Assembly: GCA_029851415.1 (NCBI GenBank)
Contig: CM056742.1
Span: forward strand, 75,630,748-75,694,747
DNA length: 64,000 nucleotides
From: Eretmocerus hayati
Lineage: Eukaryota > Arthropoda > Insecta > Hymenoptera > Aphelinidae
Direction of reading: 5' to 3'
Part shown: positions 11,301 through 53,456 of the stretch, in pieces
How the letters are laid out: each line of letters opens with the position of its first letter
Numbering within the stretch: the stretch's first letter is position 1
Made by a program: the position numbers and the translations under genes
Notes under the pieces: generated by a model
Told to the model about the DNA's origin: nothing
What the model saw: only the letters and a program-made list of their open reading frames with translations
Databases searched by the model: none

Positions 11301-11557
11301 ATCATCAACGGTACATAACCTCTCGGTCTAAGGTTCGGAGGAGTTTCAGGTCCATTGGAACATCCTACAAACCACAGTGGCGTCATAACTGTGCGGATAA
11401 CTGCTCAAAGCTCGATTTCGCCCTGTTTTGGGCCCCATAGCCGAGGCTGCTGACTGGTAATGAATTCTCTGGGCATCCTCAATGGTACATCACTACTTGA
11501 TCTGAGGTTCTGTAGAGTTTCGGGTCAATTGGAACATCCTAACCCCACAGTGGCGTC
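5330..11557. repeat. Higher-order repeat domain 1: three copies of a 2076-bp 12-mer
   Basis: Three consecutive 2076-bp blocks begin near 5330, 7406 and 9482. Each holds twelve monomers, some slightly shortened. Landmarks recur exactly 2076 bp apart: plus-strand open frames at 6160, 8236 and 10312, and minus-strand frames at 5602, 7678 and 9754. I saw only isolated substitutions between blocks, for example GGGAGTG versus GAGAGTG near 6597/8673 and CGTCAG versus CATCAG near 8573/10649. Monomers within a block are far more diverged. This pattern indicates recent block-wise amplification. Confidence 0.93.
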
Positions 11558-11614
11558 ATAACTGCGCAGATAACTGATCAAAGCTCGATTTCGCCCTGTT
11601 TGAGGCCCGATAGC

Positions 11615-28731: not shown

Positions 28732-28823
28732 TACTATTTTCTAAAAATGGCTGACAGAGTTGGCCTTTAGATTTTATCGTGGTTATTGCTAACAACTGTA
28801 CAAACTAAATATAGCATTACGAA

Positions 28824-30302
28824 ATGTCTTTCGTGAATTTAGAGAGCGAATTACTCCTGATAAGTTTAAGCTTGTATAATAACGCTGTGATACCACGCAA
28901 CGTAATACAATCCTTCATTAAAACTCTAATAGATTTCACTAGCAATAATTTCACAAATTACATTCTACAGCAAGTTAAGATTTCTAGTAAATTCAGTCAA
29001 GAGACGCTCGATGCTCTGAGTGACATCTTCCAAGACTCAGCAGTCATTTTCAAAAAGTTTGATACTGAATACAAAAGATTTGAACTTTACAAGGAAAAGC
29101 AGTTGTTGATAGATCCTTTAAGCTTTGAACTCAAAAAATATGGGAAAAGCTCCCAAGCTCAACACGCTCCTCTAAGATGGTCACTCAAAACTTTTTTAGA
29201 AATACCAGGAAACTTCCACGTTATGATGAAGTATAAAGAAGAATTGAAGAATGATGACGGTATTATTTGCAATGTTATGCAAGGTGAATATTGGAAGGGC
29301 ATTGAACGTAAATTCGAAAATAGTATTGTGCTTCCTTTGTTTTTCTCTCACGATGACTTCGAGGCGGGTGACGCCCTGGGGTCTCATGCTGGTCAAAATT
29401 CTCTAGGAGATGTTTTCGTAACTTTGCCATGTTTTCCTCCGCATATAACTTCAAAACTTGCGAACATATTTCTTGTGGATCTTTTTTATGCGAGTGATAG
29501 AAAAGAATTCGGCAATAAAGCAGTTTTTCGTGAATTAATAGCTGAGTTGAAATATTTACAGAGGAATGGTCTCATTTTAAATATTGGGAAAGAACAGGTT
29601 CATGTTTACTTCCAACCTTGTCTTGAGATAGGAGATAATAAGAGCTTAAATGAAGATCAGGGTTATCAAGATCATTTTATTCACGGTAGGCCATGCAGAA
29701 TTTGCAGGGTTGATATGAATCAAATCAAATCAATGATACAAGATGATGAAGCTTTGTTGAGAACTATAGAGAATTATCTTGAAAATTTGAGACGAAAACA
29801 ATCATGTGAAACAGGACTCCTTGAAGAGTGCGTTTTTAATGAGTTAGATGATTATAACAATCTTGATAATGGTGGTCTTGACCTAATGCATGATGTTCTC
29901 GAAGGTGGTGGGAATGCTCTATTCATTAATCTTCTTGACGGTCTGATTAACAAACAAGACAAGTTCAAATTTGATTTCTTGATTCAACGTATCGAGTGGT
30001 TCAATAAGGAGGCATCCGATATTTCCAATAAGATCCCTGTCATTAAAAAAAGTCACTTGTCTGGAAAGGGCAAGTTGAAAATGTCTGCCGCTGGAATGAT
30101 AAACTTCATCAGATTTTTTGGAATTTTGATAGGTGATAAAATAGATCGATATGAAGAAAATGAGTCTTGGATTTTGTTCCTCAATTTTCGAAAAATAGTT
30201 GACATCTTGCTATCTCCTCGTATAGTTGAAGGTCATATTATGCAATTGACTTATCTCATACCAGACTTTCTCTCGTTGTACATTAAGCTTTATGGCGAAT
30301 GA
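28824..30302 (+). CDS. tnp2-like transposase ORF (C-terminus cut off by insertion)
   Basis: This is a 492-codon uninterrupted frame starting at ATG 28824. Recognisable blocks, in order: LPLFFSHDDFEAGDALGSHA around residues 171-190, with an acidic triplet then G-LGSH; YASDRKEFGNKAVFRELIAE around 230; CRICRVDM around 290; and DLMHDVLEGG around 353. The last resembles the conserved D-x-MH-x-x-L-x-G segment of tnp2/CACTA-type transposases and their animal relatives. The frame ends exactly where an antisense non-LTR fragment begins (TATGGCGAATGATGATTGATTG), so the natural C-terminus is missing; a likely remainder lies at 30751-30956. It sits 93 bp after the SAM-domain ORF on the same strand, which suggests one two-gene element or locus. 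The long intact frame contrasts with the broken first ORF. Confidence 0.7.
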   Translation: MSFVNLESELLLISLSLYNNAVIPRNVIQSFIKTLIDFTSNNFTNYILQQVKISSKFSQETLDALSDIFQDSAVIFKKFDTEYKRFELYKEKQLLIDPLSFELKKYGKSSQAQHAPLRWSLKTFLEIPGNFHVMMKYKEELKNDDGIICNVMQGEYWKGIERKFENSIVLPLFFSHDDFEAGDALGSHAGQNSLGDVFVTLPCFPPHITSKLANIFLVDLFYASDRKEFGNKAVFRELIAELKYLQRNGLILNIGKEQVHVYFQPCLEIGDNKSLNEDQGYQDHFIHGRPCRICRVDMNQIKSMIQDDEALLRTIENYLENLRRKQSCETGLLEECVFNELDDYNNLDNGGLDLMHDVLEGGGNALFINLLDGLINKQDKFKFDFLIQRIEWFNKEASDISNKIPVIKKSHLSGKGKLKMSAAGMINFIRFFGILIGDKIDRYEENESWILFLNFRKIVDILLSPRIVEGHIMQLTYLIPDFLSLYIKLYGE

Positions 30303-30956: not shown

Positions 30957-33763
30957 GTCATTCTCTCATTTTAATGTGGGTATCATTAAGTATGAATTTC
31001 TAGACTAAGAATTGTAATAAAATTTGTTATAATAATGGAACATTAGAACTGATCTTTTCACCTCTATTTATGATTCTCTGCATGAATATTTTTTAGTAAG
31101 ATTATCAATCATGGCTGTTGTGAATGTTAATATGTTCTAGAAAAATTGGAGTACACCTGATTTTTAATCATTTCGTGGTATTCGTGATAATGCAAAAATA
31201 TCCTGCACTCAGATTTTTAGTGGTACACAGCTCCATTATCCGTCTGCCACTTAGGCCCTCGATTCTTGATTCCCAAAATCCGACCTCATTACCGTAATCA
31301 GCGACCTCATTCCGCCGTGTAAGCTGATTCGAACAATATTTGACAGCTTATATCAATTTTATTACAGTTATTTTCAGACGTCTATTCCCATTTCCCAGAA
31401 TCTGACCTGATTTTGGGAGGTCTCAAAAACATCTTAAAAATCTCTATCAATTATCAATTGATCTGAGTATTCCCTGTGCAATCTCAGACAATCATTGTAA
31501 ATTTCCAAATGTTATCTTCAGCACTGTAATCATCTTTGAAAACCCACGAACATTCAGCGTTATTCGTCCAGATTGTTACCTTGCTGTACCTGACAACACG
31601 AATTATCTAGACCAAAGAGTAACTTTTTTGTATTAAATGGCCGTGAAAATCTTTGCATGCTTTCTCAATATCCTCTCATAAAAAAAATTAGTGCCGCAAG
31701 AGGTGAAGAGGAGATACTTGTAAACGTGACTATTTAATCCTGTATAATTTCATTTTTTACAAAACGCTCATGAAATATTTGATTCATTTGTTGTTTGGGT
31801 GGATACAATTTTAGTACGATTTGCGAGATTAGCCGAGAAATGATCAAAACTTAGGGGAAGTGTGAATCGTCAACATTCCCAGGAAATCTGATGCAATTAT
31901 AACTTCAAATTCACGTAGACGGCATAAGCATTTTAATGTATCTTTACAATTTCTAAACTTCAATCATTTGTGGAGTATATACGCAGCCATGAATTTCCTT
32001 CCATTCTAATCTGAGTGAACCACTCGTGTTATCTTCGTCCACAAATATACATATACAAATTTCATTACAATGATAGTAGAAAATGTCAGCTGTGTATCCC
32101 TCGAGAGCAAGAGGTCGTAAAACTCATTGGGGTTCCAATTTTATTTTCGTGGACATAATCTTATATCCACCAACTTTTCTTCAATTCTTGATCAACTTTT
32201 CCAGAACCTTTTTGCTTTTATCTCGAATTTATCAACCGATTGTTGCAACAGTATCATGTATAATCTTCACAAAAGAAGGTCCCCGGTAGTTTTAAAACCC
32301 CATATTATTCCGTTCCATTTCGAAATCTCGAACTCTGTGCGAGAATAATTCATAAATTCCCATGCACATCATCTGAGAGGCTGAGGTAAGATGAACACTG
32401 CTCAAACGGATAACAATATTTATGACACTGTTCCAAGAATCGCGTAGTAAATCATGGGCAAGAGCTCAAAATTTTTGAAAATGTTCTACTATACAGTTGA
32501 AACAGCGTTGCACAGCATAAAATGTTGTTCGTGTGGAGAAAAAAAATTCAGACTTCAATGGATCCGAACCCACAACTTTTTGCTTCCGAAGCAAGAGAAG
32601 TACCGCTCTGCTAACATGAATCTGTACACGAAGAGGTTCAAAAGTCATATATACATTCATCGATCCTCTCGAGGAGCTTGAGTTTCGAACATCGTTATTG
32701 CGTACTTGTCGTTCTCACACTAAAATGAGATATATCTCTAAAAAAGCCAAATTGGTCGACCCCGTCATTAGGTAATAGTTATTGTAGTCACGGAGTTATC
32801 AACGGCCCTGCGCAACAGTTTAATTTACCCGAGTACCCTAGAACGCCAAGTCGGGACTACTGAGCAGGCGCTCGGTGCTGACAGCCGACTTTGCCGAGTA
32901 GTGGCTACTTGGCTCTCGGAGGTAGATGGTACCTAACCTTCCTTACCTCACAACATGAGTAGTGGCTACGCAGCTCTTCGGTATTTGCAACCTTTTTTTT
33001 CTCAGTGTAGTGTGCCGTCGGAACCGTTTTGTGGGGGCTCTCAGATCAGGTCTCTTAACAATTTTTCAAAAACTGCGCCCATTCCGAGGTTTATTCCAAT
33101 ATGAGTTATGGTGCAGCCTTCTTCAAAATTTCCTGGGTTTCGGAATATTCATATAAGCATCACATACTTCATAATCAACATTTCCAGCAGAAATCATGCG
33201 GGCAACATGATATTTGAAATATGAAGGAGAAAGGAATAATTGTTTCATACCATGCACGAAATTTCAAAAAAGTGTGCCCCTATAGCTCAACTTGAAATTA
33301 TAGGTATCCCGCAATACTACATTTCCCCGGGACTTTCTGATTCTCGATCTCGTCGGAGAAACTTTGAGATGGGATCAATAATCTTGCTCTTAGCACAACA
33401 AAAAACTCGAGTCTAGACCTTGATCCCCGTCTCTTCTTGATTTCGCCGAGAGTCCCGTTGAAACTATAGATTTCTTAGCAACTTTGAAATAATGAAAGCC
33501 TGCGTATGAACCCTTAAAACACTTCGGGAAAAATCGTGCAGGCCATTACCAACGTATTTTTGGTGCTCCTTTTGGATCAATTGTTAGTTTTTTTATCCAT
33601 GGTTACCAAAAATTAAAATGAAAAAGAGGGGTCAAGATGTCAGTTCCATGTCAAGTGTAGCTTCTCCTTTTTTCGGCCTTATTGCAAGTGTGAAAAGCCA
33701 CGGTGAAGCTCGGGATCTGGGCGGGCAAATGAATCAAATATAAGAGCCCAAAGGCCACATTTT
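30957..33763. other. Non-coding stretch without supported genes apart from a tRNA-like sequence
   Basis: Only short unrecognised open frames are present. The last few hundred bases may include the 5' UTR of the downstream LINE, whose left boundary I could not fix. One tRNA-like sequence lies at 32550-32623. Confidence 0.55.
32550..32623 (-). tRNA. tRNA-like sequence or tRNA-derived SINE head (degenerate)
   Basis: On the minus strand, 74 nt fold like a tRNA. The acceptor strands AGATTCA and TGAAGTCT pair with one bulge. The anticodon arm is TTGC-TTCGGAA-GCAA, and the T arm holds GGTTCGGATCC, close to a pol III B box; an A-box-like TAGCAGAGCGGTAC lies near the 5' end. The loop would read anticodon CGG (proline). 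A run of eight T follows within a few bases, as expected for pol III termination. The D stem is poor and the acceptor is imperfect, so I favour a pseudogene or SINE-derived copy over a working tRNA. Confidence 0.5.
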
Positions 33764-34699
33764 TTGTGCACGGCGTATACGTACTTGGAGGAGAATTCAC
33801 TTATGGAAGAACAGATTCAGAATCTGAATAATCTTGTGCTCAATAGCCAGTGTGCTTCGCGGGATATTAGCCCTAGTAACGACAACCACTTGATTAATAC
33901 TCCTTTTGATGTCGGTGACTCTCGATCCCAAAACGAGCCATCTGCGTCTGTGGGTCGGGGACCTTCCCGCCAGTCACCTCGTGCGTGCCAGGGGGCGAGC
34001 TCTGGTGTTATGGGTAACGAGAACTGCGAATTAGTTATAAATGGTGTGCTCAAAGCCGACTCAGATACCACCGATGAGGAAGTTATGAAAATTTCACATG
34101 CAGTTCTCGGAACCATTCTACCTTCGTTGGAGAAGGAAGATATCGCCAGAGTACGAGTCCTGGGATTGCGGCGGGTGTCTGGGGAGCAGTTCTCCGACGG
34201 TAACTCAGGCTCTTTGGATACCCAACCATCGACCCATGGGTCGCGTGGATTGCCCGCTTGTATAGTCACTCTTTCCAGAAGTGAACTGATAGGGAGAATC
34301 ATGAGGGCCAAACGGTCAATAAGTAACAGCTACTTTACCACCCACAATATCAATCCCGTCTTGCTTCACCAGGCCTTGAAAACTCACGTGCCGGACCGTA
34401 GAATTCTGATCAATGAGATGCTGCCTCGTGAAAAGTTCTTATCGTTCAAAAGCTTGAGGCGATCCGCGAGGCAATTAGGCTTCAAGTATGTTTGGCACAG
34501 TGGCGGACGATTCCTGGTCAAGAGGGACGGAGCTGACCGCATTCACGTATTCGAGTCTCTTTCTGACTTACATTTCATTCGCGAAGCCACTAGACCGGAG
34601 AGGAAACGTAGAACAAGAACTCAAAATTCAGGTAATACCAACTCTGACCACGTTGAGCGGAGCGATCCACCAGCTCAAAAACCAGTGCCCTCGCCCTGA
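33764..34699 (+). CDS. LINE ORF1 protein
   Basis: This is a 311-codon intact frame. The first methionine is at 33764; a second (MEEQIQNLNN) at 33803 is an equally plausible start and opens a short helical, coiled-coil-like stretch. A low-complexity polar segment follows. Then comes a compact domain around residues 85-260 (ELVINGVL ... ARVRVLGLRR ... ILINEMLPREKF ... YVWHSGGRFLVK) of the kind found in ORF1 of CR1-like elements, where it serves RNA binding. The C-terminus is basic (RPERKRRTRT). I see no CCHC knuckle. The stop at 34697-34699 is followed after about 20 bp by ORF2. It is intact although ORF2 is not. Confidence 0.75.
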   Translation: MCTAYTYLEENSLMEEQIQNLNNLVLNSQCASRDISPSNDNHLINTPFDVGDSRSQNEPSASVGRGPSRQSPRACQGASSGVMGNENCELVINGVLKADSDTTDEEVMKISHAVLGTILPSLEKEDIARVRVLGLRRVSGEQFSDGNSGSLDTQPSTHGSRGLPACIVTLSRSELIGRIMRAKRSISNSYFTTHNINPVLLHQALKTHVPDRRILINEMLPREKFLSFKSLRRSARQLGFKYVWHSGGRFLVKRDGADRIHVFESLSDLHFIREATRPERKRRTRTQNSGNTNSDHVERSDPPAQKPVPSP

Positions 34700-34719
34700 C
34701 AATTTTTGCCGCTGGGGAA

Positions 34720-37577
34720 TTGAGGAAGGGAGAAGAGTCCTTGAGAGCGGGTTTCGTCAACATCAATTTACTCACTGATAAAATTGAGAAGTTACGATCA
34801 TTCATTTCCAACGAGCCTGCCTATCACTTTTTTGGGATTGCTGAGTCGAAACTGGGTCCAGAAGTCACTGATCATCTCGTTCAACTCCCGGGATATTCTA
34901 TTGTGAGGCAAGACCGCAACAAATGTGGAGTGGAGTTGCTTTGTATGTGCGGAGTGACTTTAAGGTGAAGAAATTAGCCACTTCCGATACATGCCAATTG
35001 GGAAAACCTGGTATCCCTGAATATTTATTCTGCAGCGTGCAACAAGGCAATTCCCCGCTCATCTTCGTAGGTGTAATCTATAGACCCCCTGCAATATCCA
35101 TGCAGAGAGATTCTGGGCTTTTCAACTCTCTTCGCCTTCTGTGTGGAGATCTTAGCCACAAATTCATGATGGGAGATTGGAACGCAGATCTTTTGTCGAG
35201 CACGGACTCGGATACTAAGACACTCATGTAGCTCACCAGTGAGTTATCATTGAAAATCGTTCAGCATGGAGCAACTCACCATACGAATACATCCCACACA
35301 TGGATTAATCATATTTACATCGATGAAAACGAGAGCATCGCCGAGTTTCAGAATAGAGCATTACCTGATTTTGGAGGACATGCAGTCATTGACGTTTCCA
35401 TTGGTATCTTCTCTCCGGCTCCTGCGAAAGATTCGTCCTCTTACATGAACCTTAGTAAGATTACGCCGGAACAGCTTAATGACTGCCTGCTCCGCTGTGA
35501 TTGGAGTGCTCTGAATCAAGTTGAAACCAGCTTGGAAGACGCGGTAAAATGTCTCAATGAAAATTTAAATGCAGTTTTGGATGAACTGGCACCAACGAGA
35601 ACGGTCTGCCCACGAGAAAAGGATGCTTCGTGGATTGGTCCATAGCTGAAATTGCTCATCAGCAAGCGGAAGGTACTGGAGAAGCGTTGGCAGCGTGCAC
35701 TACGCAATCAGCGCCCCTGTCGTCAGCTTGAAGATGAGTACTTCCAGCTCTCGGAGGAGGTCGCGGTGCGCATGGACTAAGAGCGTAATTCCTTCTATCA
35801 CATTTACCTGTCAGATGCTCTTGATCAAAACAAGGATATCTGGAAGGAAATGCGTAACCTCGGCCTCTTGCCTAGGAGCAAAGAGGAGGAACTCCATGGT
35901 TTTACACCAAACGAACTGAATGATCACTTTGCTGGGGTATCTATATCAGCCCACGAGAACATTGATGAAGCAGATGAACTTATTTCGTCCGCCTCTGAGA
36001 ATGGTTTCAAGTTCAAATCTGTCAATTTTTCCGAAGTGGTATTGGCTGTCAAACACTCTTCATCCCAAGCTCGTGGCGTTGATGGAATCCCTCAGAGTGT
36101 CATCGCTGAAGCTCTTCCAGTTATAGGAGAGCTACTGGTGAATATTTTTAACTCCCCCTTTGCTCAGGGAACTTTTCCTGAAGCTTGGAAACAAGCCCAG
36201 CTGGTCGCGCTGAAAAAGACAACAACTCCATCTACTGTCTCGGACTTCCGACTTATTGCTCTTCTGTGCTTCCTTGCTAAGGTTCTTGAAAAGATTGCCC
36301 AGTCCCAAATCACGGAATATCTTGAGAAAAAGAAACTTTTGGATCCCTTCCTGACTGGTTTTCGACAAAATCATAGTACACAGACAGCTTTATTGAAACT
36401 CACTGATGACATTCGGGTCGCAATTGATAAGAAGAAAATCACTTTATTACTGCTGTGTGATTTTAGCAAAGCCTTTGACACGATCTCACCGGCTAAACTA
36501 TTAAGCACACTCCAGAAGCTAGGCTTTTCAAGGGCGGCGCTCTTGTGGGTGAAATCTTACTTGCATGGTCGCACCCAAAAAGTTATCTCAGAAAAAGGCG
36601 AATCCGATTGACTCACAACCAATTTGGGTGCACCACAGGGCTCCGTCCTTGGACCTCTACTCTTCAGCCTGTATGTAAATGACTTGTCCGAGGTGCTCAA
36701 AGGGAAGTCGGTCAGCCACATTTTCTATGCAGACAATCTCCAGATCTACCTTCACGTTGAAAAGAAAAACTTGGCAGAGGGAATCACTAGACTTGAGGAA
36801 GCGGCAAGACTGGTTGCAGAGTGGGCTGAGTGCTCTGGTCTACGGCTCAACGCTGGAAAGACCAAGTCCATCTTTTTTAGCTCAGCAGGTAATGTCATCG
36901 AGCTGAAGAAGATGGGTCTCTCAGGTGTTGTGATGCCGAGCGGAGTGATGTTCCCATTCAGCGACACAGTCGTTAGTCTTGGCGTAACTCTGGATTGTGA
37001 ATTATCGTGGAAACCGCACAGGAATCAAATTACCAGTAAAGTCAATCGCGTCCTATATAGTTTGCGGTTCATCAGGGCGTGCACTACAGAGACACTTCGC
37101 CGTCGCTTGGTCGAGAGCTTAGTCATGCCTCACCTAGACTACTGTGCAATTGTGTACCTAAATGCTGGGAATGATCAGAGGCAAGGTATACAGAGAATGA
37201 ACAATACATGTGTGAGATATATATTCGGGCTGAGGAAAATGGAACACATTACCCCGTATAGGAAACAATTGGGCTGGCTACGTACTGATAGACGCCGAGA
37301 CTATTTTACAGCTATACTAATGTATAAAATTTTGAATTTGAAAGAACCAGGTTACCTGGCGGAAATGTTCTCTAAGTACCAGCCCAAATATCCGAAGCGA
37401 GGTGATGGTAAACACCAAGACCTTGTTACCTCCTTCATGCGAACTGATTTTGGAGGCTCCTCCTTCCAGATAAGAGGTGCTAAACTCTGGGACTCCATTC
37501 CCTCCTCAATATGCCACCTTCCATCTTTGGCCTCTTTCAAAATAGCGGTTCGAGAATATCTTTTTCAATTAGATTAA
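34720..37577 (+). pseudogene. LINE ORF2: APE endonuclease plus reverse transcriptase, disabled
   Basis: The N-terminus shows the apurinic-type endonuclease (FVNINLLTDKIEKLRSFI, then FFGIAESKLGPEV, GYSIVRQDRN). A frameshift near 34930 moves the frame at the G-VALYVRSDF block. From there one frame runs to 37577 with stops at 35229 (TAG), 35643 (TAG), 35778 (TAA) and 36609 (TGA). Reverse-transcriptase blocks follow in order: DFRLIALLCFLAKVLEK, motif A LLCDFSKAFDTIS, motif B GAPQGSVLGPLLFSLYVNDL and motif C, which reads FYADN where FADD/YADD is expected. The C-terminus WDSIPSSICHLPSLASFK matches the usual end of these proteins. The third catalytic aspartate is therefore lost in addition to the truncating changes. 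Confidence 0.88.
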
Positions 37578-40058: not shown

Positions 40059-43000
40059 TCATTCCTTGTCGTCTTCATTCTTCTTCACGGGAACAAGCAG
40101 TACTAGCTTCACTGCTGGGCGAGTGAAAGTGGACTTGGCCGTACGGAGTCGAACGACTCGCATGAGGTTGTTGAGACCAGGAGCAGTGTCGGTGATCACG
40201 GCTAATGGCCACAATGCAGGTGACGAAAGCTCGTCGCGAATCAATACGACGTCGCCTGGTTGAAACGAGCGTTTTGGCCGGGTCCATTTGTGACGTTCTT
40301 GGAGAAAACTCATATACTCCTTAGACCAAGCTCGCCAAAATTCTTGCGTGAGCTGAGTGATCCATCTCCAGCGTTTGGTAAAAGGTATCGCCCCCCCCCC
40401 CCCCCGGGCACTGAGGCTTCTGGGAGTACAAATGACGGTCTTTGGATTAGGAAATGCGCGGGAGATAACGCGACTAGATCAGAAGGATCATCAGATATAG
40501 ACAGTAAAGGTCTTGAGTTGAGGCATGCTTCGACCTGACAAAGGATGGTCGACATTTCAACAAAAGTGAGAACGTGTTCACCGACAATCCGTTTGAGATG
40601 GTGCTTCGCGGACTTCACCGCAGCCTCGCAAAGCCCGGAAAAATGCGGAGCGGCCGGAGGGTTAAAGTGCCACTTGGTTCATAGATTGGTGAGCTCCACT
40701 GCGATCGCCTTGTTCTCCTGCGACGCCTCATTGAACCGCCGTTTCATCTCAGCGTCTGCTCCGACGAAATTGAGACCTCGGTTGCTCAGCAAGCGCGAAC
40801 AATGCCCTCTCCTACTGGTAAACCGTTTGAAGGCAGCAATGAAGGCTTCGGCCGTGTAGTCTTCCACTCATTCCAGATGCACCGCCTTGGTACTAAGACA
40901 TACAAAAACAGCAATATAAGCCTTCACAGTTCCCTTGCCCCTAAACTTCGCCAGACGAATTTTGTATGGACCCGCAAAGTCTACACCTGGGTGCTCGAAA
41001 GGGTGAGCTGGTGTGGTTCGAATCCGGGGAAGGTCTCCCATTAATTGCGTAGAGGCTTTAGCAGAATACCTGAGACATACCACACATTCGCCAATGGCAT
41101 TTTTCACCGCTTGTCGTCCTTGAAGTACCCAGTATTGAGAGCGAAGTCCATTCAATGTCATCTGAGTGCCGCCATGGTGCGTTAGCAGATGAGTTCGCCT
41201 GATCAGCAACGTCGTCAGATGCCCCTTTTTTGGCAGGATCAGCGGATGCTTCTCAGCGTAATCGAGATCGAAGTGACGTAGTCTACCCCCGACGCGTAGC
41301 AGTCCCTTGTCTAGAAATGGATTCAGTTTCAACAATTTATTATCCTTAACAGATTTCTGAGCCCCGAGACTTTTGATCACGTCCTTTAATTCGTTATCCT
41401 GCAACAGATAGATCCATAACAGTTCAGCATTAAGAAGTTCTCCAGGTTCAATCAATTCATCCGTAATTACACTAAAATCCATGAATTCCAACCTCAACAA
41501 GCCAATGTTTTTCCTTTTTACCTCAGGTAGTCGAAGACTAAGCTTCGTGACAAATCGAAGACACAAGGCAGTAATCAGAAACAATTTCGTAGCCGATGAA
41601 TATCTATTCAATATCTCATTGTCGAGAAAATCGTCCGAGGCTTGAGTAGCGACATTATGCGAGGAAACTCTTTCTTCTAAGGGCTGGACCTCGATGTTCT
41701 CTGCCGCAGTATCCCAAGGCTGCTTAGAATGTGATAGAAAGGGAGGTCCCTTTCACCACAATTCGAAGTTATGCATAAGATCAGGCTCTAGACTTCTAGA
41801 AATCACATCCACTGGATTCTCCTTAGACTTAACGTGATGCCAGTGAGCACGTGGCACCAATGTCTGAATCTGCGAACAACGATTGGCTACGAAAGTTTGC
41901 CATCGACTAGGTGAAGCTCTTATCTAGTACAGCACATCGCGCGAGTCCGACCACAGATGTATCGAGGCTATGTCGATTGGCATCGTAATGACAAAATGCT
42001 CCGTGAGTTTAGCTAGAAGATGTGCAGCGCAAAGCTCTAACCGAGGAATACTAAGAGTTTTAAGCGGTGCGACTTTTGACTTTGCACACTGTACCGTCAT
42101 AATCACTTCATCATTCCTAATTATTCTCAGATAAATCACGGCTCCATAGGCTTTGGACGAAGCGTTAGCAAAATCATGAAGCTCAATAACCTCAATTCCA
42201 TCAGAAGAATACCCTATCCATCTAGGAATTTCAATCGACTCTAAACTAGACAGTTTGTTGTACCAATTTTTCCACTGCTCTGAGTAATCAGTAGGGAGAA
42301 TGTCATCCCAATTACATTTTAAGAGCCACAAAGATTGCATGAAAATTTTTGCCCATATAACTACCGGAGCTAACCATCCAAGGGGGTCGAAGATCTTGGC
42401 TGTCAATGAGAGAACAGTTCTTTTCGTCAACGAGAGCAAGCCAAAATCCTGAGACTTTATGCGAAAATAGAAAATATCCTCCTTCGGAGACCAAGAAATG
42501 CCTAAAATCGAGGCACAATCTTCCGTTTCAAAAGCAGCTGAACCACTCATTCTGTGAGCGGGTGGAACCCAGTCAAGCAGTTCTGCATCATTAGCAGCCC
42601 ATTTTCGCAATTCAAACCCGCCCACCTTGAGGAGTTCTACCAAATGAATCTGCTCTTCACGCGCTTCTTCCACCGTCTTCTCCCCCGACATAAAATCATC
42701 CATGTAAGACTCCTCTTCGATGATTTGAATAGCCGAGGTAAACGAATGTCCTTAGTCAGCTGCTAGCTGTCTCAAGACTCGAATTGCTAGGTACGGAGAA
42801 CAGTTCATACCATATGTAATTGTACTGAGTATATACGACAACACTTGTGAGTGCGAGTTGCCTCTCCACAATATCATTTGCAAATGTCGATCTGTCGGAT
42901 CTACCAGGATTTGTCTGTACATCTTCTGTATATCCGCGACAAAAACAAAGGCGTACCCACGCCATCCCAAAACGAGGTCGAACAGTTCAGGGAGCAGATT

Positions 43001-44551
43001 CTCTCCGGTATAGAGGCAATCGTTGAGAGACAAACCGTGTACTTTCTGTGAGGCGTTGAAAACCGTACGTAGTTTTTTCGAACCTTGGATTATACCGTGA
43101 TGAGGAATAAAATAGCAACGCTTCCTTCCCTCGACCGATAAACTAGCGCTCAATTGCATGTGCCCAAGCTCTTCATATTCACGAATGAAAGATCGATACT
43201 TCTCCGCGAAGATAGGGTCTTTCTCAAACTTTTTCTCCATAGAAGAGAGCATACTCAAGGCCGAATGATACGAATCTCCGAAATCAAAAGTTAGACTTTC
43301 CAGCACGTTCTCTTTGACAGGCAATCGAACCACATATCTCCCCTGAGGATCTTGGGAATGCGTCCTTACGAAATGCTCCTCGCACTTGCGATCATCTTCG
43401 GACACAAATTTGTTCCTAGGCAGTTCTTCTTCCTTCCGAAATCTCTCTATCAGTGAGTTTAATATCGAGTCATCTACCAGGTGGAAATACGAGGATGATG
43501 ATCCTGATCCGTTACCAACACTCGACGATATTACCCAACCGAGTTCTGTATTTGTGGCTATAGGCAGCTCTGAACCCCGGGAATTTGCCTTCTTAACGCC
43601 ATCAAGCACTATTTGAGCATGAATTTTTGCACCTAGCAAAATATCAATAGATCGTGTTTTCAGGAAGTTTGGATCAGCCAGTTGTAACCCTTGAATATGC
43701 CCCCAATTATCCGTGCTAGCAGATACAGATGCTCTATAACCTGAAACTTTTAGAACGATCAGAGCTTGAACGTCACAACTAAAATTGGAAGCAAATCGAG
43801 GCTTGATCGTGAAACTAGTCATACCTCTCGCGTTGAAGGAGTTGACTCCGGCAACTCCTTTAACCTGCACTTTCGTCCGAGACCTACCGATACCCAATTT
43901 TTGGCAAGCATTTTCCGTCACAAACGACGACTGAGAGCAACGATCTACTAACGCCGTGAAATAATACTCGAATCCGGCCACCGAGATCACTTTGACAACC
44001 GCTGTCGGCAAAAGGACAAAACTGGAATCCGTCGCCGAATTTGGACAAACTGTCTGCGTGAGATGCGTACAAGATGCAACGGGTGGCTTCGAAGCCGAAC
44101 TAGAATTTTCTTTCAAAGGAGGCATAATATTTTCCGACTTGCTACCCCCCGAGGAGTCGTTTGATTTCGGATAATCCACATGGAGAAAAGTGTGATGCTT
44201 TCTCGGACATTTCCGACACGCCTTCTTCGCTTGACAAAATCTCGCCCCATGCGTACCGAAGCAGATATAATATAACCTTTTCTCAAACACAAAGGCCTTC
44301 CGATTGGCTATACTTTTAGCCTTGAAGGAATTACACTGAGAGAGGTGATGTTCCTCCGAACAATCGGGACAGACTCTTTTGGGAGGATCGGAATCCGTAT
44401 CCGTAGCCATCGAGTGCGTTTTACCAGAACCTGAAACCTTGGCTTGCTGGCTATCAGTTTGAGGCTTTTGACTAGTCTCAATGGACTCTAATGTGGCTAG
44501 ATGATCCTTAAAGAATTCCTTCAATATCTCTACGGAAGGGGGTACGTTTGT
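40059..44551 (-). pseudogene. BEL/Pao pol: zinc knuckles, protease, RT, RNase H, integrase (broken)
   Basis: It is read in the same frame as gag down to about 40405. Seen in order: CCHC-like CPDCSEEHHLSQC (about 44371), a second Cys/His cluster ending HHTFLH, protease ALVDRCSQSSF (about 43945; the usual D-S/T-G reads DRC), RT with VADIQKMYRQI and YMDD (42706-42695), RNase H (DFANAS near 42175, WSDS near 41945), and integrase with its zinc-binding HH..CC region near 41170. The integrase core D is in GVDFAGPY; SNRG stands where SDNG is expected and GLCEAAVK where G-WE is expected. In-frame stops lie at 42752 (TAA), 41924 (TAG), 41753 (TGA), 40868 (TGA) and 40679 (TGA). A frame change at the C15 tract (40391-40405) leads into the intact C-terminal domain (40059-40313 and just upstream). 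Several breaks replace conserved tryptophans. Confidence 0.92.
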
Positions 44552-45382
44552 TTACCCTAAATGCTTCTCCCATTCCTTCCTGGTCGTAGCATCGAATTTA
44601 GAGACCGTATGAAATACAAACAAATCTTCGCCACTCTCCTCAATAGGACGCTCGAGACTTTGTAAAAAATTCGCAGCATCAAAGGAACTGCAGTAGAGCC
44701 TTCTCATTTCAGCATAAGATTCATTCTTCATAGGCTTTACCGAGAAGAGAGATACCAAAGATAAATTTACGAGCCTCCGCTTATTCTCGTAGTAACCGCA
44801 TAACTCTGTCCAAGCCGTATTATAATTATCACCGATCATTTCTATACCTTTTATCTGATCTAAGGCCTCACCAGAAAGTTTGGTTCTCAATTGATAAAAT
44901 TTGAGCACTGGGTCCATTTCTCTACGATGAACTAGCGATTTGAAGAGGTCTCGAAAATTGGCCCACTCATGATACTTCCCGGAAAAGACAGGAATGTCAA
45001 TTTTCGCCATAGAATAAGAGTTTTCCGAACTAACAATATTCTGAACCACTGGCGTGGCCGGAGCGTTAGCTTCTCTCTCTAATCTCCCTGATTCAGCGAA
45101 TTGGTTCAAGACTTCTTGGAAATCCGATTTATTAGTTAAGTACGACTCCTCAACTAATTCCGACAACTTAACCTTGAAATAGTCATGATCAAGTAGTTTA
45201 CTTTTACTCGCAAGAATCTTGTTATGATTCTGACAAAAACTCTGGTAATTTGCATTCAAATTATGAAACCTAGTTAAAACACTAGCTTTCATCTTTTTAA
45301 CTGTAGCCTGAGCTTTATAATTATGAAAAGAATTTGCAATCTTTGTTTGCAAATCCAGCTGCTGCTCGTAAATCGCCTCCAT
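44552..45382 (-). CDS. BEL/Pao Gag (ends at an in-frame TAA)
   Basis: This is a 276-codon frame from ATG 45382. The N-terminal half is helical and polar. The segment around residues 128-250 (IDIPVFSGKYHEWANFRDLF ... LKFYQLRTKLSGEALDQIKG ... YNTAWTELCGYYENKRRLV) is the capsid-like DUF1759 region of BEL/Pao Gag, which builds the particle around element RNA. The frame stops at TAA 44552-44554 and continues in the same frame into the zinc-knuckle and pol part. Either this stop is a mutation in a single gag-pol frame, which I favour given the other five stops, or it marks a readthrough site. Confidence 0.85.
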   Translation of the reverse strand: MEAIYEQQLDLQTKIANSFHNYKAQATVKKMKASVLTRFHNLNANYQSFCQNHNKILASKSKLLDHDYFKVKLSELVEESYLTNKSDFQEVLNQFAESGRLEREANAPATPVVQNIVSSENSYSMAKIDIPVFSGKYHEWANFRDLFKSLVHRREMDPVLKFYQLRTKLSGEALDQIKGIEMIGDNYNTAWTELCGYYENKRRLVNLSLVSLFSVKPMKNESYAEMRRLYCSSFDAANFLQSLERPIEESGEDLFVFHTVSKFDATTRKEWEKHLG

Positions 45383-46647
45383 GATTACTCACTTTTTGGA
45401 AACCGACCGTTCAAATAATCAAACCAGAACCGAATCCGAAACCTTGAATCCCAGAAATCTACTCAAAAATAGCAGAAAATATGGGAGAGGAAGCCAAATT
45501 CTGGACAGAATGAGGCAAAACCGAACCAAAACCGGAATTTTTCAAATCAAATTGAGTGATTTGATGGAAACACTGATCCCCAAAACTCCGTTAGCTTATA
45601 CACAATATTTACAAATATTTACAATCCCCATTTCACCCAGACTGAAACCTGATTTTCGGGCTGCTGACTTGATCATTTCAAGGTCAAAGAATTCAAAAAC
45701 CAAAGATCTCGAGTAGAGGTAACCTCGAAATAAGCTGAAGTTGGATTCAAATGCGTATCGAATAGTCTCGTATTCGTAACCTATAACTCACTTATACAGT
45801 TGAACCATGAGCTGACGCCCCGCCGATGACAGAGACGAGGTGCGCTGAGATGCGGCGATGTAGACTGCCCCGTCGAACTGGCAATTGAGCGGTGATATGA
45901 CGCAGTCACGGCGACGAGATTCCTTTGCCGGGCTGAATAGCGTTGCTCCGCTGCACGCAGCTGATGTAGCTGCGGATGACACCGGCTGAATATTGCTGGT
46001 GGTCGAGCGCACGCTTGCGCCAAGCAGCACGCACACTAATGCCCGTCACACATGGTGGTAACCTTGAAAATTCCGATAATTTTAGAGAAGGTCCAAAACT
46101 TGAGCAAAGCTCGATGTATACAATGTCCGATTGAGCAACATGTGCTTAAAATTGCACAACTGAATTTACAACAAAATATGAATTTTCAGATTATTGACTG
46201 AATGCTCGACAGACATGCTGACCAAGCGATTTGAACTAAAACGAGCAAAAAGATAAACAGCTTATCCTGAAGCGTCCCCCGTTGCCCAAAAGCCACCCAG
46301 CTCCCAGGTCGTCTCCGTCCCCTCGCCTTGAGGTGCGGTTAGCCGAGACTCCGTTACTCCGACTCAGACACTTGGCTGCATGTCACGCGCCCGATATTTC
46401 TGCGAGCTCGACTCCAATTTCGCAGGTTGCGCTCTGGTCACTCCCAAAGACATCGGAGAATCAACACCTGCATCCGCTCCTCCAAGTGTCACCGAAGGTC
46501 TCGCTAGAGCCGCAGGTCCTCGAGGGAGAGTTGCCGCTCGTCTCGCTCACGCGGCCATTTTGCCACACGGACGACTCGCATCCACTCGGATTGCAGAAAT
46601 CCATCCGCATCCACTGATTCATATCACCACTGACACCGATCCAAACT
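45383..46647 (-). other. Long 5' leader of the BEL/Pao element
   Basis: About 1.26 kb lies between the primer-binding site and the gag ATG. It holds only short unrecognised frames on either strand. This is long for a leader and could hold cis signals or be an acquired insertion. Confidence 0.6.
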
Positions 46648-46929: not shown

Positions 46930-47240
46930 ATACTGTCTTTTTATCGCTGGCGAGGGGAAGAACAACGAAATTCTGTATAAAAGTGGCTCCATCTCGCACA
47001 GGCGATGAAAGAACTAGTTTATTCTAAAACAGCGCTCCCCGCTTTCTATGCGATTATTTCAAATTGATTAACTTGATGAATCTCTCGCGACGAGCCAACA
47101 ATTTATCTAAACCATAATATATTCAACAAAATTCTTCAAATAACTCTTTTCGATCAAAAATGCAACGATAGCTCCTTTTATCAAGAAATTTTGAGATATT
47201 TCCTTTTTGACCAAAAATTTTCAGAGTTCCTTTTAACCAA
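46930..47240. other. Right flank of the BEL insertion with a TATA-like motif
   Basis: TATAAAAG at 46977-46984 is a good TATA-box match but I see no transcription unit after it. The motif TTTATTCTAAAA is at 47018. It is otherwise featureless and AT-rich. Confidence 0.4.
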
Positions 47241-47565
47241 AAATATGCAGATGATTCCGTTTTGACCAGAAATTCCAGATAGTTTCTTTCAATCAGACAT
47301 TTTCAGATAGTTCCTTTTGAATCAGACGTATCCAAATAGTTCCTGTTAACTAAAAATTCACAGATAGTTCCTTCCTAAAACAAAAATTTTCAGATGGTTC
47401 CTTTTAATTCAGACCAATCCAGATAGTTCCTTTTCAATCAGACGGATTCAGATAGTTCCTTTTAAATCAGACGAATTTAGATAGTTCCTTTCGAATCAGA
47501 CGAATTCAGATAGTTCATTTCAAGTCTTACGATTTCAGATAGTTCCTTTTCACTCTGAGCCATCG
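47145..47565. repeat. Degenerate 28-30 bp minisatellite
   Basis: The core AGATAGTTCCTTTT-(A/C/G)AATCAGACG recurs about 12-14 times. The cleanest units, 29 bp apart, lie between about 47420 and 47560; the leftmost units are degraded. Confidence 0.85.

Positions 47566-47935: not shown

Positions 47936-47986
<51 letters not shown>
47936..47986. repeat. TA microsatellite at the left transposon edge
   Basis: About 25 uninterrupted TA units abut the left terminal inverted repeat; a shorter TA run abuts the right one. Confidence 0.97.
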
Positions 47987-47987
<1 letters not shown>

Positions 47988-47988
<1 letters not shown>

Positions 47989-48723
47989 GAGTAAGATCGC
48001 CATATTTCGAACAAATCGTGCGCGCGACCCACACGGATCCTCCTGCCAATTTTTTGTGTGAAAGTAGATGCCAAAACTAGTACTTTTCCAGAGTTTCAGC
48101 TCAAAAAAAAAATTTTCACGCCCGCTAGAATTTTTTCAAGCTCGAAAAAAGACCTCTTTTAGCGTTTCTTCAGGAGCGTGCCAAATCGGTCAGGAACATC
48201 GTAGCGAGGTCTGCGGGAGCGCATTTTCTTCGTTTTGACGTCAAATTTCAGAAAAAAATGAGAAAAAAGTCTCAAAATTCAATCTGCTTACTCCAGACAA
48301 TGAAATGTAAAGTCAATTTTTCGCGATTTTTGAGGCATATTGAAATAGCTGCTGTTTCGACGGATTCCAATATTTTTTCTCCCGGGTTGATTAGTTTTTT
48401 TGGTCATGAAAAAACCTACAATTTCCCTTCTCGAACGTGAAAGATGGTCGAAAGGCGTCCGAGCTGCGTTCATTCTACGATACGCAGTTTTTTGGAAAAC
48501 ACAGATTTGACTTTGACAGTACTCTCGTCTAACAGCCTCAATCGGGCTGTAATTCACCAAAAATATGCTTCAAGTTGTATAGATTCGAGGGTAAAAAGTT
48601 TTGGTCTGTATTTCGGGCCTATATTCGAGCTATGAATTAATAGAAACCTGCATTTTTGAGCGATTTCCGTGTATTTTTGACGGCTCAAAAGAGACGCCAA
48701 TTCCACCAGTGACGATGTCCCTA
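47988..48723 (+). repeat. Left terminal inverted repeat (736 bp)
   Basis: Begins TGAGTAAGATCGCCATATTT and ends at GATGTCCCTA. Short open frames inside it are mirrored in the right copy and are not genes. Confidence 0.95.
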
Positions 48724-49099
48724 CTTGAGCTGGGTTACCTTGATTCCTCAGGGCGTTCTCACTCTGGTTGAATAGATTCTCATGATCGTTTCAGTGATTC
48801 GTCGCTCGTGAGAAATGACAAACAATACGGCGAGGTGCATAACGCTCTATAACGTATAAGATACAATAGGCAAGGAGATGTCGAATTTTGGTTTTTTTAT
48901 CGCACCAGCCACGCAGGGTACCATGTTTATCACAGATAACAGCGGTCATCATGGTGATCAAGTTCCAAAATTTCTAATGCGATATAACGTGATCCACCTT
49001 GGTTCCGTGGACCTAGAGAACAACGCAATATGTATCTACAGCAAATCCATCCTTTTTCCCCCACAGAACAGTCATGGAACGTGATTCGGATCTGGGTAT

Positions 49100-52000
49100 C
49101 TACAATATCTTGATCGTGGTGCTACGGGTATCTGAAGAGAATGTCTTGAATTCTAAAAATCCGTTTGGTTTTGGAATGCAGCAGTGGTAGTCTCTTGTTC
49201 CCGGGACAGTTTCTACACTAGCGTGGAGCTTGTTCAATTTTACTATTAGCTGCGTTGATGTCCTTCGCACTGACCCACAAAAACCTGTAAAATAGTATTC
49301 GTGGCGGATACTAGCAAAGTGATTTTATTCGTTTACAAGAATTCTTGATAGTGGGCTCATACTTGATTCCTTTGATGTTATCAGAAGCAGCTTCAAACAT
49401 GTCCCTAGCATTTGCTATTGGCTGATCTACAGGTCTTCGCAGAGCTATTCTAGTGATTTCTCTCTTAGCTACTGCCCCAATCCCATCACAGGGGCTTTTT
49501 CCATGACTTGTGGCGAAGAAGTTGTAGGATTTTATCTTTAATCCAAAATCTCGCTCGTGCACGCACATGTTTGCAAAGTTGTTTCTGTAAAATAGAATCC
49601 AGAAGTCATGGTTTTAGATAGAGCTTCCAGACTGTCGATATATCTTTGCCGAAATGGTTCGTTACAAGTAATGGAACCAGGGCAACTCACTTATTTTTAT
49701 ATTGCGTTGGAGCACCATCTGAGAAGTACATAATCCACTTGATGTGTGGGAAGTCGGCCTTTACTTGAGCAGTAAATTCCTTCTGGAAAGCGTAAACTGT
49801 TGGCGCAGTGTGCTGGGTAGAATCACTAATAACGCAGTAGTTGGCAACTTTTATCTCACCGTCACTGGATTTATAATAGACAACTATCGGATGAACTGTT
49901 GCTTGAGTATTATTATTGTTGAAATACCATGCCTGCACCGATCGCTGAATTATAAATGCATAATTTTCTGCAAAATCCATTAATACAAGAATGGTGAATT
50001 CATCTAAATTTTGCTTGCAATAATCAAGGAACTCCTGCATTTCTGCAATATAATGATGAGTAGTCAATTTCACAATATCTTCACTCAACTTTCTGATAAA
50101 TGTATCAGTAGTTTGTGTTTCGGACTGCACAGACATGGCACTACTTTTTCCGCTTCCACTGTTACCTCCTGTTGTCCATGTTTTGAAAGTGATTTGACTT
50201 TCTCCCGTCATTTGGACTATATCTGAGAGATATTCCACAGCTCCATTGACACCAGGGCAATGTTTACAACGTTTTAACATGCAGTTCCCATTTTCAACAT
50301 CACATACTACTCTTTCCAGGATATCTCTGTACGTTATATTCGCTTTGAGAGCATAAATCTTCATTTTGATATTTTCATGCTGTGCACACACACAGATACT
50401 GTGAGTTCCTGGATCTCCAGCAGAGAGACACTCTTTTGGTCGAAAGCTTTGAAAGAACGTCAATCCTGGAAGTTTTGGCAGATGACTATTTTCTCTCTTC
50501 CATCTTTTGTACAATTCCTGGATTGTATACAGTAAGAGCCTCTTTTGACGCTGTTCTTTCTCATTAGTGTCACTATTGAGGACTGTGAGATATTGTCTTG
50601 TTCCAGGACATATGTAGCAATTTTTCTGGTCCATGTAATAGTCTATGATAGATTTTTCGACATCTACAGGATACATTTTTTGTGCCTTCCGAGGATCATG
50701 ATCTGGAAACCAAATTAAAAGAAAAATGTATCTTGGGGGAGAGAGAGCCTTCAGAATATTTTAGTATCGACCATTGCTCTTTTCCCCCTATATTTTCAGA
50801 TGAGTATATGTAAACTGTCTTTGTTGCACACATTTCCATAAAGATAAGCGCATTAATTTTTGCAAATGCTGGAGACATGGTTCAATTTTCAAAACGTGAT
50901 GAAGAAATGAATGTCCCTACGCAAGATTTGGACCAATTTAATCACTAGTTATTGGAGGATGGATCCTCAACGAGGTAGAACTGAAGAAATATGCAAAGTG
51001 AATAAATCTATGTGTAAAATTTTAGTGCTTGGAGCCAAATCCATCATGTACAGTAATTATTGGCATAATACTGTTAATTCAAACCATAACAAAAACAGTA
51101 TACAAGCTATTCCTAGAAATTTGAAGAATACTACATATTGTACATCAAAATCTTGTTGTTCTAACTCCTGTAGATGGGCATCGAATGGGACTAACAGATT
51201 CCATCTAAGGAATATACCATCAGTCTCCATAGAGCCATGATATTACCACCCCTGTTAACAATGTAATCGGATGAAAAACATGAATAATGATAAAAATCCT
51301 CTAGACTCCTAACTACCCGGAATGACTAATTGTATACGCTGGTATGGTTTCACATATTTCAACTTGCCCAGTAATAGGTATGTGAATCTCACTCCACCTG
51401 CATGGACACTCACCCATATTCAGCCTGAATTTCATCATCTTGTTGAACATATACCTAGTACATTGGAAATGTTCTTTTGCATTCTTGACTGTCCAATCGG
51501 TGGGCAACAGTGACAGAGTTTCTATCTTTTCTCTGATGGTATTTGCACAACGGAATCTATACTGCAAGTTTTTAATCATTTGAGAGAAATATCTGTCTTT
51601 GGACAACAAATCTTTGAGGTCAACTTCCTTGTCGGTGACTTTACAATCAAATGACTTCTCTACTGCTTCAACAATTCTATTCTGGATGGTACTGATGCTA
51701 TCTAATGCTTTTACTCTGAAACGAGCTCCTGTTAGTTTTTCTCGTTCCAAAGGAGGAACCTCAAGAACTTCATAGATTGTTGCCAATTTCTTCCTTGACT
51801 GGCTGCCAATACTATATGCTGAGGAGGAGGATTGAGAAGCATGGACAGATTCAGAGAACTCAGATTGTTGTGACGTTCCAACATTTTGTAGAGCAGCAAT
51901 TTCTTCCATTTTTGTGGCATTTTTGTTGGCGCCTTCAGCAATCTTGAGTCGAACTCTACTAACACAATTAGTGCACAGTTTCTTTCCAGGAATCAATCGG

Positions 52001-52332
52001 ATATTTGATACATCATGGAATTGATCACTCATTTCCAGAGTTATTTCCCTCAATTGATTGTTCACACTCTTCTTATGAACTTTATCTGGATCATCACACT
52101 TGCGTTGTAAATTCGCATAACCTGGTCCAAGGAACATGTATGAATGATGATCGCAAATAGTTTTCACATGATCTTTTCCATCACCTTGGGAATTCTCAAT
52201 ACGATGCATGAGCAACACCTGATCACTTTGATCCACATAGGATAAATCATGTATCTCATTCTTCTTTGTATAACACTGTTTGTGACAATCAGTCTGAGTT
52301 ATTGCACCAATATCACATATTTTCAACTCCAT
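49100..52332 (-). CDS. Four-exon DDE-like transposase, 787 residues, uninterrupted
   Basis: Exons on the minus strand: 52332-51414, 50702-49691, 49584-49337 and 49284-49100. Donors are GTGAGT, GTGAGT and GTAAAC; acceptors end TTCCAG, TTACAG and TTACAG. The phases match at every junction, giving 788 codons with the stop at 49100-49102. The ATG follows an in-frame TAA at 52357-52359, which fixes the start. Residues 60-123 hold a zinc-binding pattern (C60, H62/H63, C79, H86, CxxC at 120-123). A helical region around 250-300 ends exon 1. Exon 2 adds Cys/His-rich segments. The DDE-like core shows LMDFAENY (D549), YFSDGAPTQYKN (D635) and ATSHGKSPCDGIGAVAKRE (671-686). PGTRDYHCC and a short tail end the protein. 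This combination recurs in animal proteins annotated as uncharacterised; the catalytic roles are inferred from spacing and similarity to other DDE transposases. The last intron (52 bp) is the least certain junction. Confidence 0.82.
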
Positions 52333-52718
52333 TTTTGGTACACATGCATTGGCAGATTAGGTTCACCAATCATTCGCCACCCTGGAGCGAAATATGTTTC
52401 GGATGGATTATCGGCACGGGGATGATAAAATTTCATCTACTTATCTGATTTTATTACGTTTGTGTATCCCTCGCTACTGCGAATTAGTGACATATACCTG
52501 TTGCGTCTCCAATGGTGAGCAGTGCAACTCGATCGCTAAGGGTTCTCTTACAATCACTGGCTACCCGTTACGTGACCCGTAAATGTCAACGTATCATAGG
52601 GTCTCTAGGGGAGACTAGAGTCCCTAAGGTAGTGGAAACATATATGATAGCTTTGAGGGATGCTGCAGCTCGAGTGAATTCACTTTATTAAAGTGCGGTA
52701 GCCGTTGGGAAGCAAGGT

Positions 52719-53454
52719 TAGGGACATCGTCACTGGTGGAATTAGCGTCTCTTTTGAGCCGTCAAAAATACACGGAAATCGCTCAAAAATGCAGGTTTCT
52801 ATTAATTCATAGCTCGAATATAGGCCCGAAATACAGACCAAAACTTTTTACCCTCGAATCTATACAACTTGAAGCATATTTTTGGTGAATTACAGCCCGA
52901 TTGAGGCTGTTAGACGAGAGTACTGTCAAAGTCAAATCTGTGTTTTCCAAAAAACCGCGTATCGTAGAATGAACGCAGCTCGGACGCCTTTCGACCAATT
53001 TTCACGTCCGAAAAGGGAAATTGTAGGTTTTTTCATGACCAAAAAAACTAATCAACCCGGGAGAAAAAATATTGGAATCCGTCGAAACAGCAGCTATTTC
53101 AATATGCCTCAAAAATCGCGAAAAATTGACTTTACATTTCATTGTCTGGAGTAAGCAGATTGAATTTTGAGACTTTTTTCTCATTTTTTTCCGAAATTTG
53201 ACGTCAAAACGAAGAAAATGCGCTCCCGCAGACCTCGCTACGATGTTCCTGACCGATTTGGCACGCTCCTGAAGAAACGCTAAAAGAGGTCTTTTTTCGA
53301 ACTTGAAAAAATTCTAGCGGGCGTGAAAATTTTTTTTTTGAGCTGAAACTCTGGAAAAGTACTAGTTTTGGCATCTACTTTCACACAAAAAATTGGCAGG
53401 AGGATCCGTGTGGGTCGCGCGCACGATTTGTTCGAAATATGGCGATCTTACTCA
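52719..53454 (-). repeat. Right terminal inverted repeat (736 bp)
   Basis: Exact-length inverted partner of 47988-48723, with eight mismatches, four of them clustered near 53005-53025. The outermost bases just outside the match differ (TC on the left, GA on the right in the same reading direction). Confidence 0.95.
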
Positions 53455-53456
53455 TC

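Follow-up and report, generated by a model that had tools for sequence, protein, structure and literature searches.

A long-inverted-repeat DNA transposon from Eretmocerus hayati, member of an unassigned animal family with a predicted DDD transposase

Structure of the element and its transposase gene

The window analyzed in this study, a 64,000-nucleotide stretch of the genome of the parasitoid wasp Eretmocerus hayati (assembly GCA_029851415.1, contig CM056742.1, positions 75,630,748 to 75,694,747 of the forward strand), contains a 5467-bp transposon at positions 47988..53454, as delimited by its ends and by sister copies, with a transposase gene on the minus strand. Its left terminal inverted repeat (TIR, 47988..48723), which begins TGAGTAAGATCGCC, and its right TIR (52719..53454) each measure 736 bp and differ at exactly eight positions without gaps, as an earlier note on this DNA had stated. 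A TC dinucleotide at 47986..47987 and again at 53455..53456 represents the two copies of a 2-bp target duplication, the right copy being followed by (TA)n; one repeat scan prolonged the arms into this adjoining TA run. A repeat scan of the TIR detected five weak inverted repeats and no direct repeats. The inverted ends, together with a transposase with a predicted RNase H-type fold, supported the assignment as a long-TIR DNA transposon.

Four exons with GT/AG borders were joined in phase, in agreement with the earlier note, and encode 739 residues. Exon 1 (51414..52332, minus strand, as are all following features of the gene) contains the start codon, a ZAD-like zinc domain and a helix-turn-helix-like region. 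Exon 2 (49691..50702) encodes a Cys-rich block and the first part of the RNase H domain, including two predicted catalytic residues: the conserved D549 (codon 49975..49977), located at the end of strand 1 in a structure model of the related protein P0002, and D635 (49717..49719), identified from conservation and the same model. Exon 3 (49363..49584) encodes a C-x-H helix and the HGKSPCDG block, whose CDG motif provides the predicted catalytic D677 (49485..49487), in the first turn of the helix following strand 5. Exon 4, as read in the window copy (49218..49284), ends early through a one-base frameshift. The 739-residue product is identical, letter for letter, to the deposited E. hayati protein QAD02_013190 (P0001), and the gene for P0002, which belongs to a second family in the same genome, shows the same four-exon plan with a homologous exon-3 donor.

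Alignment with two sister copies, L010 and L009, led to rejection of the earlier view of an apparently intact element. Relative to both sisters, the window copy carries the one-base frameshift in exon 4 and has lost one codon in exon 2, approximately 20 residues before D549. In L010 and L009, exon 4 is read through into a conserved carboxyl end (...GTRDYHCCIP...), which the frameshift removes from the window copy; the latter thus has no full-length open transposase frame. Exon 1 of L009 is interrupted by a stop, while the frame of L010 is open across 779 codons and P0002 (767 amino acids) exactly matches copy L013. The open frames of E. hayati therefore sit in other copies. On the basis of these alignments, the window copy has probably ceased to produce a functional transposase by itself, although it could be moved by protein from another copy.

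The 787-residue protein proposed in the earlier note was obtained when exon 3 was ended at another donor, near 49336, and this splice form was judged non-homologous. A transcript that uses this donor would restore the conserved carboxyl end, since the 787-residue frame terminates in the GTRDYHCCIP stretch, and could in principle leave the window copy autonomous. This scenario is very improbable. The alternative form exchanges the FLWVSAKDIN stretch, kept in similar form by both sisters and P0002, for YEPTIKNSCFCGSVRRTSTQ; the deposited genes for P0001 and P0002 are both spliced at the other donor; and the codon missing ahead of D549 is not restored.

Related copies, recent mobility and target site

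The genome scanned for copies comprised 692 Mb, with the window located in contig C2. Three full-length copies, all on C2, make up family 1: the window copy, L010 (5470 bp, 99.2% identity to the window copy) and L009 (5482 bp, 98.9%). The family-1 end pattern, with at most two mismatches, matched the genome 12 times, as compared to 0 for a reversed control. The search for copies with like ends that the earlier note had suggested recovered two full-length sisters at about 99% identity, as well as empty sites for a related copy, L016. With 20 gap columns set apart, 22 substitutions over the element were private to the window copy and 18 to each sister, corresponding to a private divergence of 0.3–0.4% per copy (22 in 5467, or about 0.4%, for the window copy). 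Seven of the eight mismatches between the window arms were private to one window arm, which indicated that these differences arose after the copies parted.

A sibling group, family 2, includes L012, L013, and L014. L012 and L013 differ at only 7 of 5760 positions and have 1014-bp arms with 2 and 4 differences, respectively; L014 is an older copy with 20 differences between its arms. Judged from these divergences, family 2 is younger than family 1, and the family, including the window copy, has moved recently. The earlier suggestion of an active or recently active element consequently holds with respect to recent mobility of the family, but not for the frameshifted window copy itself. Seven relatives of approximately 1.78 kb (L016, L017, L018, L021, L024, L027, and L030), in which the two inverted arms (84–89% identity to each other) take up almost the entire element, are foldback-like non-autonomous derivatives.

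Flanking sequences were compared in a joint scan of 30 loci and the window, which covered 39 of the 40 scored matches (509 candidates) of the genome search. Both ends were recognizable in 16 copies, the remaining loci showing single ends. Matching 2-bp flanks were found in 15 of the 16 copies; the duplicated dinucleotide was TA in 11 of these and TC (window copy), CA (L010), GG (L016), and AA (L034) in one each. L029, the sole copy without matching 2-bp flanks, has badly degraded ends. Not one pair of flanks matched over 3 bp among the 16 copies, and a duplication of at least 3 bp was rejected; matches of 4, 6, 8, and 10 bp were those of TA copies within TA runs. TATA flanked the insertion on both sides in 8 of the 16 copies, on one side in 5 and on neither in 3, and the insertion context was often TATA-NN-TATA.

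Empty sites were identified for L016, a relative of approximately 1.8 kb without a gene and with family-2-like ends, which is inserted in a high-copy repeat (flanks at C2:113804495 and C2:113806478) that served as empty-site reference. When its joined flanks were used as query, 40 scored matches (572 candidates) were obtained, two of which were the flanks themselves, while 38 spanned the junction without the element at 84–86% identity. All four of the empty junctions that were read contained a single GG, whereas two are present at the occupied L016 site, which demonstrated a 2-bp target duplication for this copy. Across the copies, the target duplication is 2 bp, usually TA, with a preference for palindromic TATA-NN-TATA.

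Transposase family and comparison with known superfamilies

The triad D549, D635, and D677 was invariant in 64 of 64 aligned relatives, and the transposase gene is under purifying selection. Of the residues highlighted in the earlier note, D549 and D635 were thereby recognized as conserved acidic positions, and the HGKSPCDG block as carrier of the third, D677. The P0002 model predicted an uninterrupted RNase H fold for the catalytic domain which, combined with the conserved residues, supports the predicted assignment of an RNase H fold with three acidic catalytic residues. The spacing between the second and third Asp (D2–D3) is near 40. In structure comparisons, the nearest matches were retroviral integrase and Mos1, with integrases scoring as high as Mos1, and the 50 solved-structure entries listed consisted of integrases, Mos1, and SETMAR/Metnase.

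The zinc-binding amino terminus claimed earlier held up in part: the region is Cys/His-rich, but its resemblance to a ZAD, based on a predicted fold around residues 74–154 and a weak profile match, is weak. The comparison is with the ZAD found in zinc-finger factors of Drosophila (Pita, M1BP, Serendipity-delta), from which the window protein differs in that its ZAD-like domain is joined to a transposase rather than to C2H2 fingers. The helix-turn-helix in exon 1 was placed by eye from residues 146–183 of P0104, a fish relative; HTH_23 was matched by 5 of 48 family members and not by the window protein.

Protein searches at E 0.001 retrieved 474 proteins with residues 300–739 of the window protein and 1197 with the catalytic part of a fish relative; each was read from its best 120 matches, and no transposase name occurred in the best 120 of either set. 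Hosts named among the matches listed include Diabrotica, Phymastichus, Trichogramma, Brassicogethes, Nymphon, Helobdella, Antedon, Amphiura, Anneissia, Hydra, and the fish Brienomyrus, and one match was a bacterial metagenome-assembled genome (Sedimenticola). A search with an alignment as query returned four Eretmocerus proteins only, and 44 pattern matches in viral contigs included no relative. A tree built from 25 chosen proteins set the six insect proteins apart from the remaining 19 with 100/100 support. The beetle Diabrotica grouped with Trichogramma (P0004 and P0060, 100/100), and the fish protein with that of the crinoid Anneissia (P0104 and P0113, 100/98); both pairings run against host relationships, which hints at horizontal transfer. 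In the Brassicogethes protein P0022, hAT-like text (recognized by eye; PF27039 precomputed) is joined to two copies of the family catalytic region, a fusion that may be an annotation artifact.

Pfam gave one weak, chance-level match for the window protein and, for nine relatives, weak matches only, without a transposase catalytic domain. For 48 members, 53 families were matched and 25 of them listed; these included neither a transposase catalytic domain nor a family of the IS630-Tc1-mariner (ITm) group, and the best values were 4.3e-05 for HTH_23 (five members), 0.15 for HTH_Tnp_ISL3 (two), and 0.034 for TUDOR (one). The window protein and its relatives share with ITm elements such as Mos1 a (here predicted) uninterrupted RNase H core, a D2–D3 spacing near 40 and a 2-bp duplication that is usually TA. 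For Mariner/Tc1, the duplication is described as 2 bp and in general TA (PMC10045372, in excerpt), with which the window family agrees in length and, for the dinucleotide, in 11 of 15 copies, the other 4 deviating. Further differences are the 736–1014 bp TIRs, the weakly supported ZAD-like amino terminus and the lack of a Pfam catalytic transposase match in the scans seen. That the family is a divergent ITm member and not a separate superfamily is unlikely in view of the duplications other than TA, the Pfam results (every match of the window protein and of nine relatives, and 25 of 53 matched families of the 48 members) and the equally high scores of retroviral integrases, although a place near IS630-Tc1-mariner is possible.

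The predicted fold of the window family also agrees with the integrase core of retroviral integrases and Ginger. The third catalytic residue of integrases is Glu, whereas it is Asp in all 64 relatives, and rve was not among the Pfam matches listed for the window protein, the nine relatives or the 48 members. Ginger is described with duplications of 4–5 bp, as opposed to 2 bp in the window family, and long terminal repeat elements and retroviruses with 3–6 bp (PMC10045372, in excerpt).

MuDR, hAT, P, Kolobok, and Dada likewise have RNase H-type transposases. Duplications of hAT, P, and Kolobok exceed 2 bp. A C/DxxH signature is given as common to the MuDR/hAT/P/Kolobok group, and duplications of 4–10 bp are given for IS256/MuDR (PMC10045372, in excerpt). 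With the signature in 2 of 64 relatives and a 2-bp duplication, Mutator, P, Kolobok, and hAT, which the earlier note had named for comparison, were disfavored, as was Dada. The predicted uninterrupted fold and the invariant D-D-D triad, nearest to integrase and Mos1, also argue against hAT, P, Mutator, and Kolobok; Hermes (hAT) and P-element transposase were not among the 50 structure matches listed, an absence that excludes nothing. Some arthropod Mutator-like elements have TIRs of hundreds of bases, and the survey that reports this names E. hayati and gives three species of Hymenoptera with complete elements of 2172–4113 bp, proteins of 334–475 amino acids and TIRs of 126–514 bp (PMC13359780); the window element is unlike them.

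The libraries searched, which did not include Repbase or Dfam, held no name for the family, in line with the unassigned status noted earlier. Chances are even that it is already named in Repbase or Dfam, for example as a subgroup of Sola, EnSpm or PHIS or as an unclassified DNA entry. Relatives occur in well-studied genomes such as Hydra, and Sola transposases, like those of the window family, are DDD. However, Sola2 is described with a 4-bp instead of a 2-bp duplication and, in one case, with TIRs of 12–13 bp instead of 736 bp (PMC3627910, in excerpt). PHIS elements (Harbinger, ISL2EU and kin) have duplications of 0 to 4 bp (PMC10045372, in excerpt), a range that includes 2 bp but is non-specific, and PHIS-type Pfam families were absent from the matches listed for the window protein, the nine relatives and the 48 members. 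Five family motif strings gave no match in the literature collection searched, and paper listings on novel superfamilies, Sola-like ones or similar groups showed none recognizable as the window family.

Interpretation, surroundings of the element and significance

The best explanation of these results, with a probability of about 85%, is that the element belongs to an animal-wide family of cut-and-paste DNA transposons that encode a DDD transposase, and that the window copy recently moved and is now broken. Two characteristics of cut-and-paste DDD/E transposons, terminal inverted repeats and a fixed 2-bp duplication (including the empty sites of one related copy), were observed directly; a third, an RNase H fold that carries three acidic residues, comes from prediction and conservation only. 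In BFVD, three matches reached E 0.001, the best named being a phage transactivator/viroplasmin protein, and several further matches were RNase H proteins. A match at E 0.062 to a Pandoravirus protein named for a hAT dimerisation region is a weak pointer in the opposite direction.

In the proposed mechanism, two regions of the transposase, the ZAD-like zinc domain and the helix-turn-helix, would bind the transposon ends and dimerize, and the two ends would be paired. The three Asp residues would hold two metal ions and cut the ends, which would then be joined to the target with a 2-bp stagger; the preferred site would be the center of a palindromic TATA-NN-TATA. Tc1/mariner elements likewise combine an uninterrupted core with a 2-bp stagger, while the target dinucleotide of the window family need not be TA.

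We tentatively put forward the possibility, not the result, that these elements constitute an undescribed superfamily of animal DNA transposons, found from Hydra to fish. It would be characterized by a DDD triad in an uninterrupted integrase-like core, a ZAD-like amino end, very long inverted ends, TATA-NN-TATA targets with a 2-bp duplication and, often, a further carboxyl domain that is maybe Tudor-like. The described duplication lengths would set it apart from Sola2 and Ginger.

Elsewhere in the window, a satellite array with a 174-bp unit (approximately 114 copies, 83% match) begins at the window edge and fills its first third (1–19757), and a degenerate 28–29 bp tandem repeat lies just outside the element (47173–47550). 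Long open stretches on the minus strand (40868–45388) resemble pieces of a BEL/Pao-type retroelement, and others on the plus strand (33707–37577) a long interspersed nuclear element with ORF1-like and reverse-transcriptase-like text, both recognized by eye; a further open stretch of 495 amino acids lies at 28815–30302 (plus strand).

Genes of the family have been submitted as host proteins labeled 'uncharacterized' or 'hypothetical', and gene sets can be inflated by them. A testable target rule emerges, a 2-bp duplication with TATA-NN-TATA preferred, and since one wasp carries very young sibling copies, living populations could be used to test for recent mobility. The amino end also suggests that a transposase domain and the ZAD of insect transcription factors may be linked: if the match reflects homology, the ZAD of insect zinc-finger proteins may derive from, or share an origin with, a transposase DNA-binding domain.

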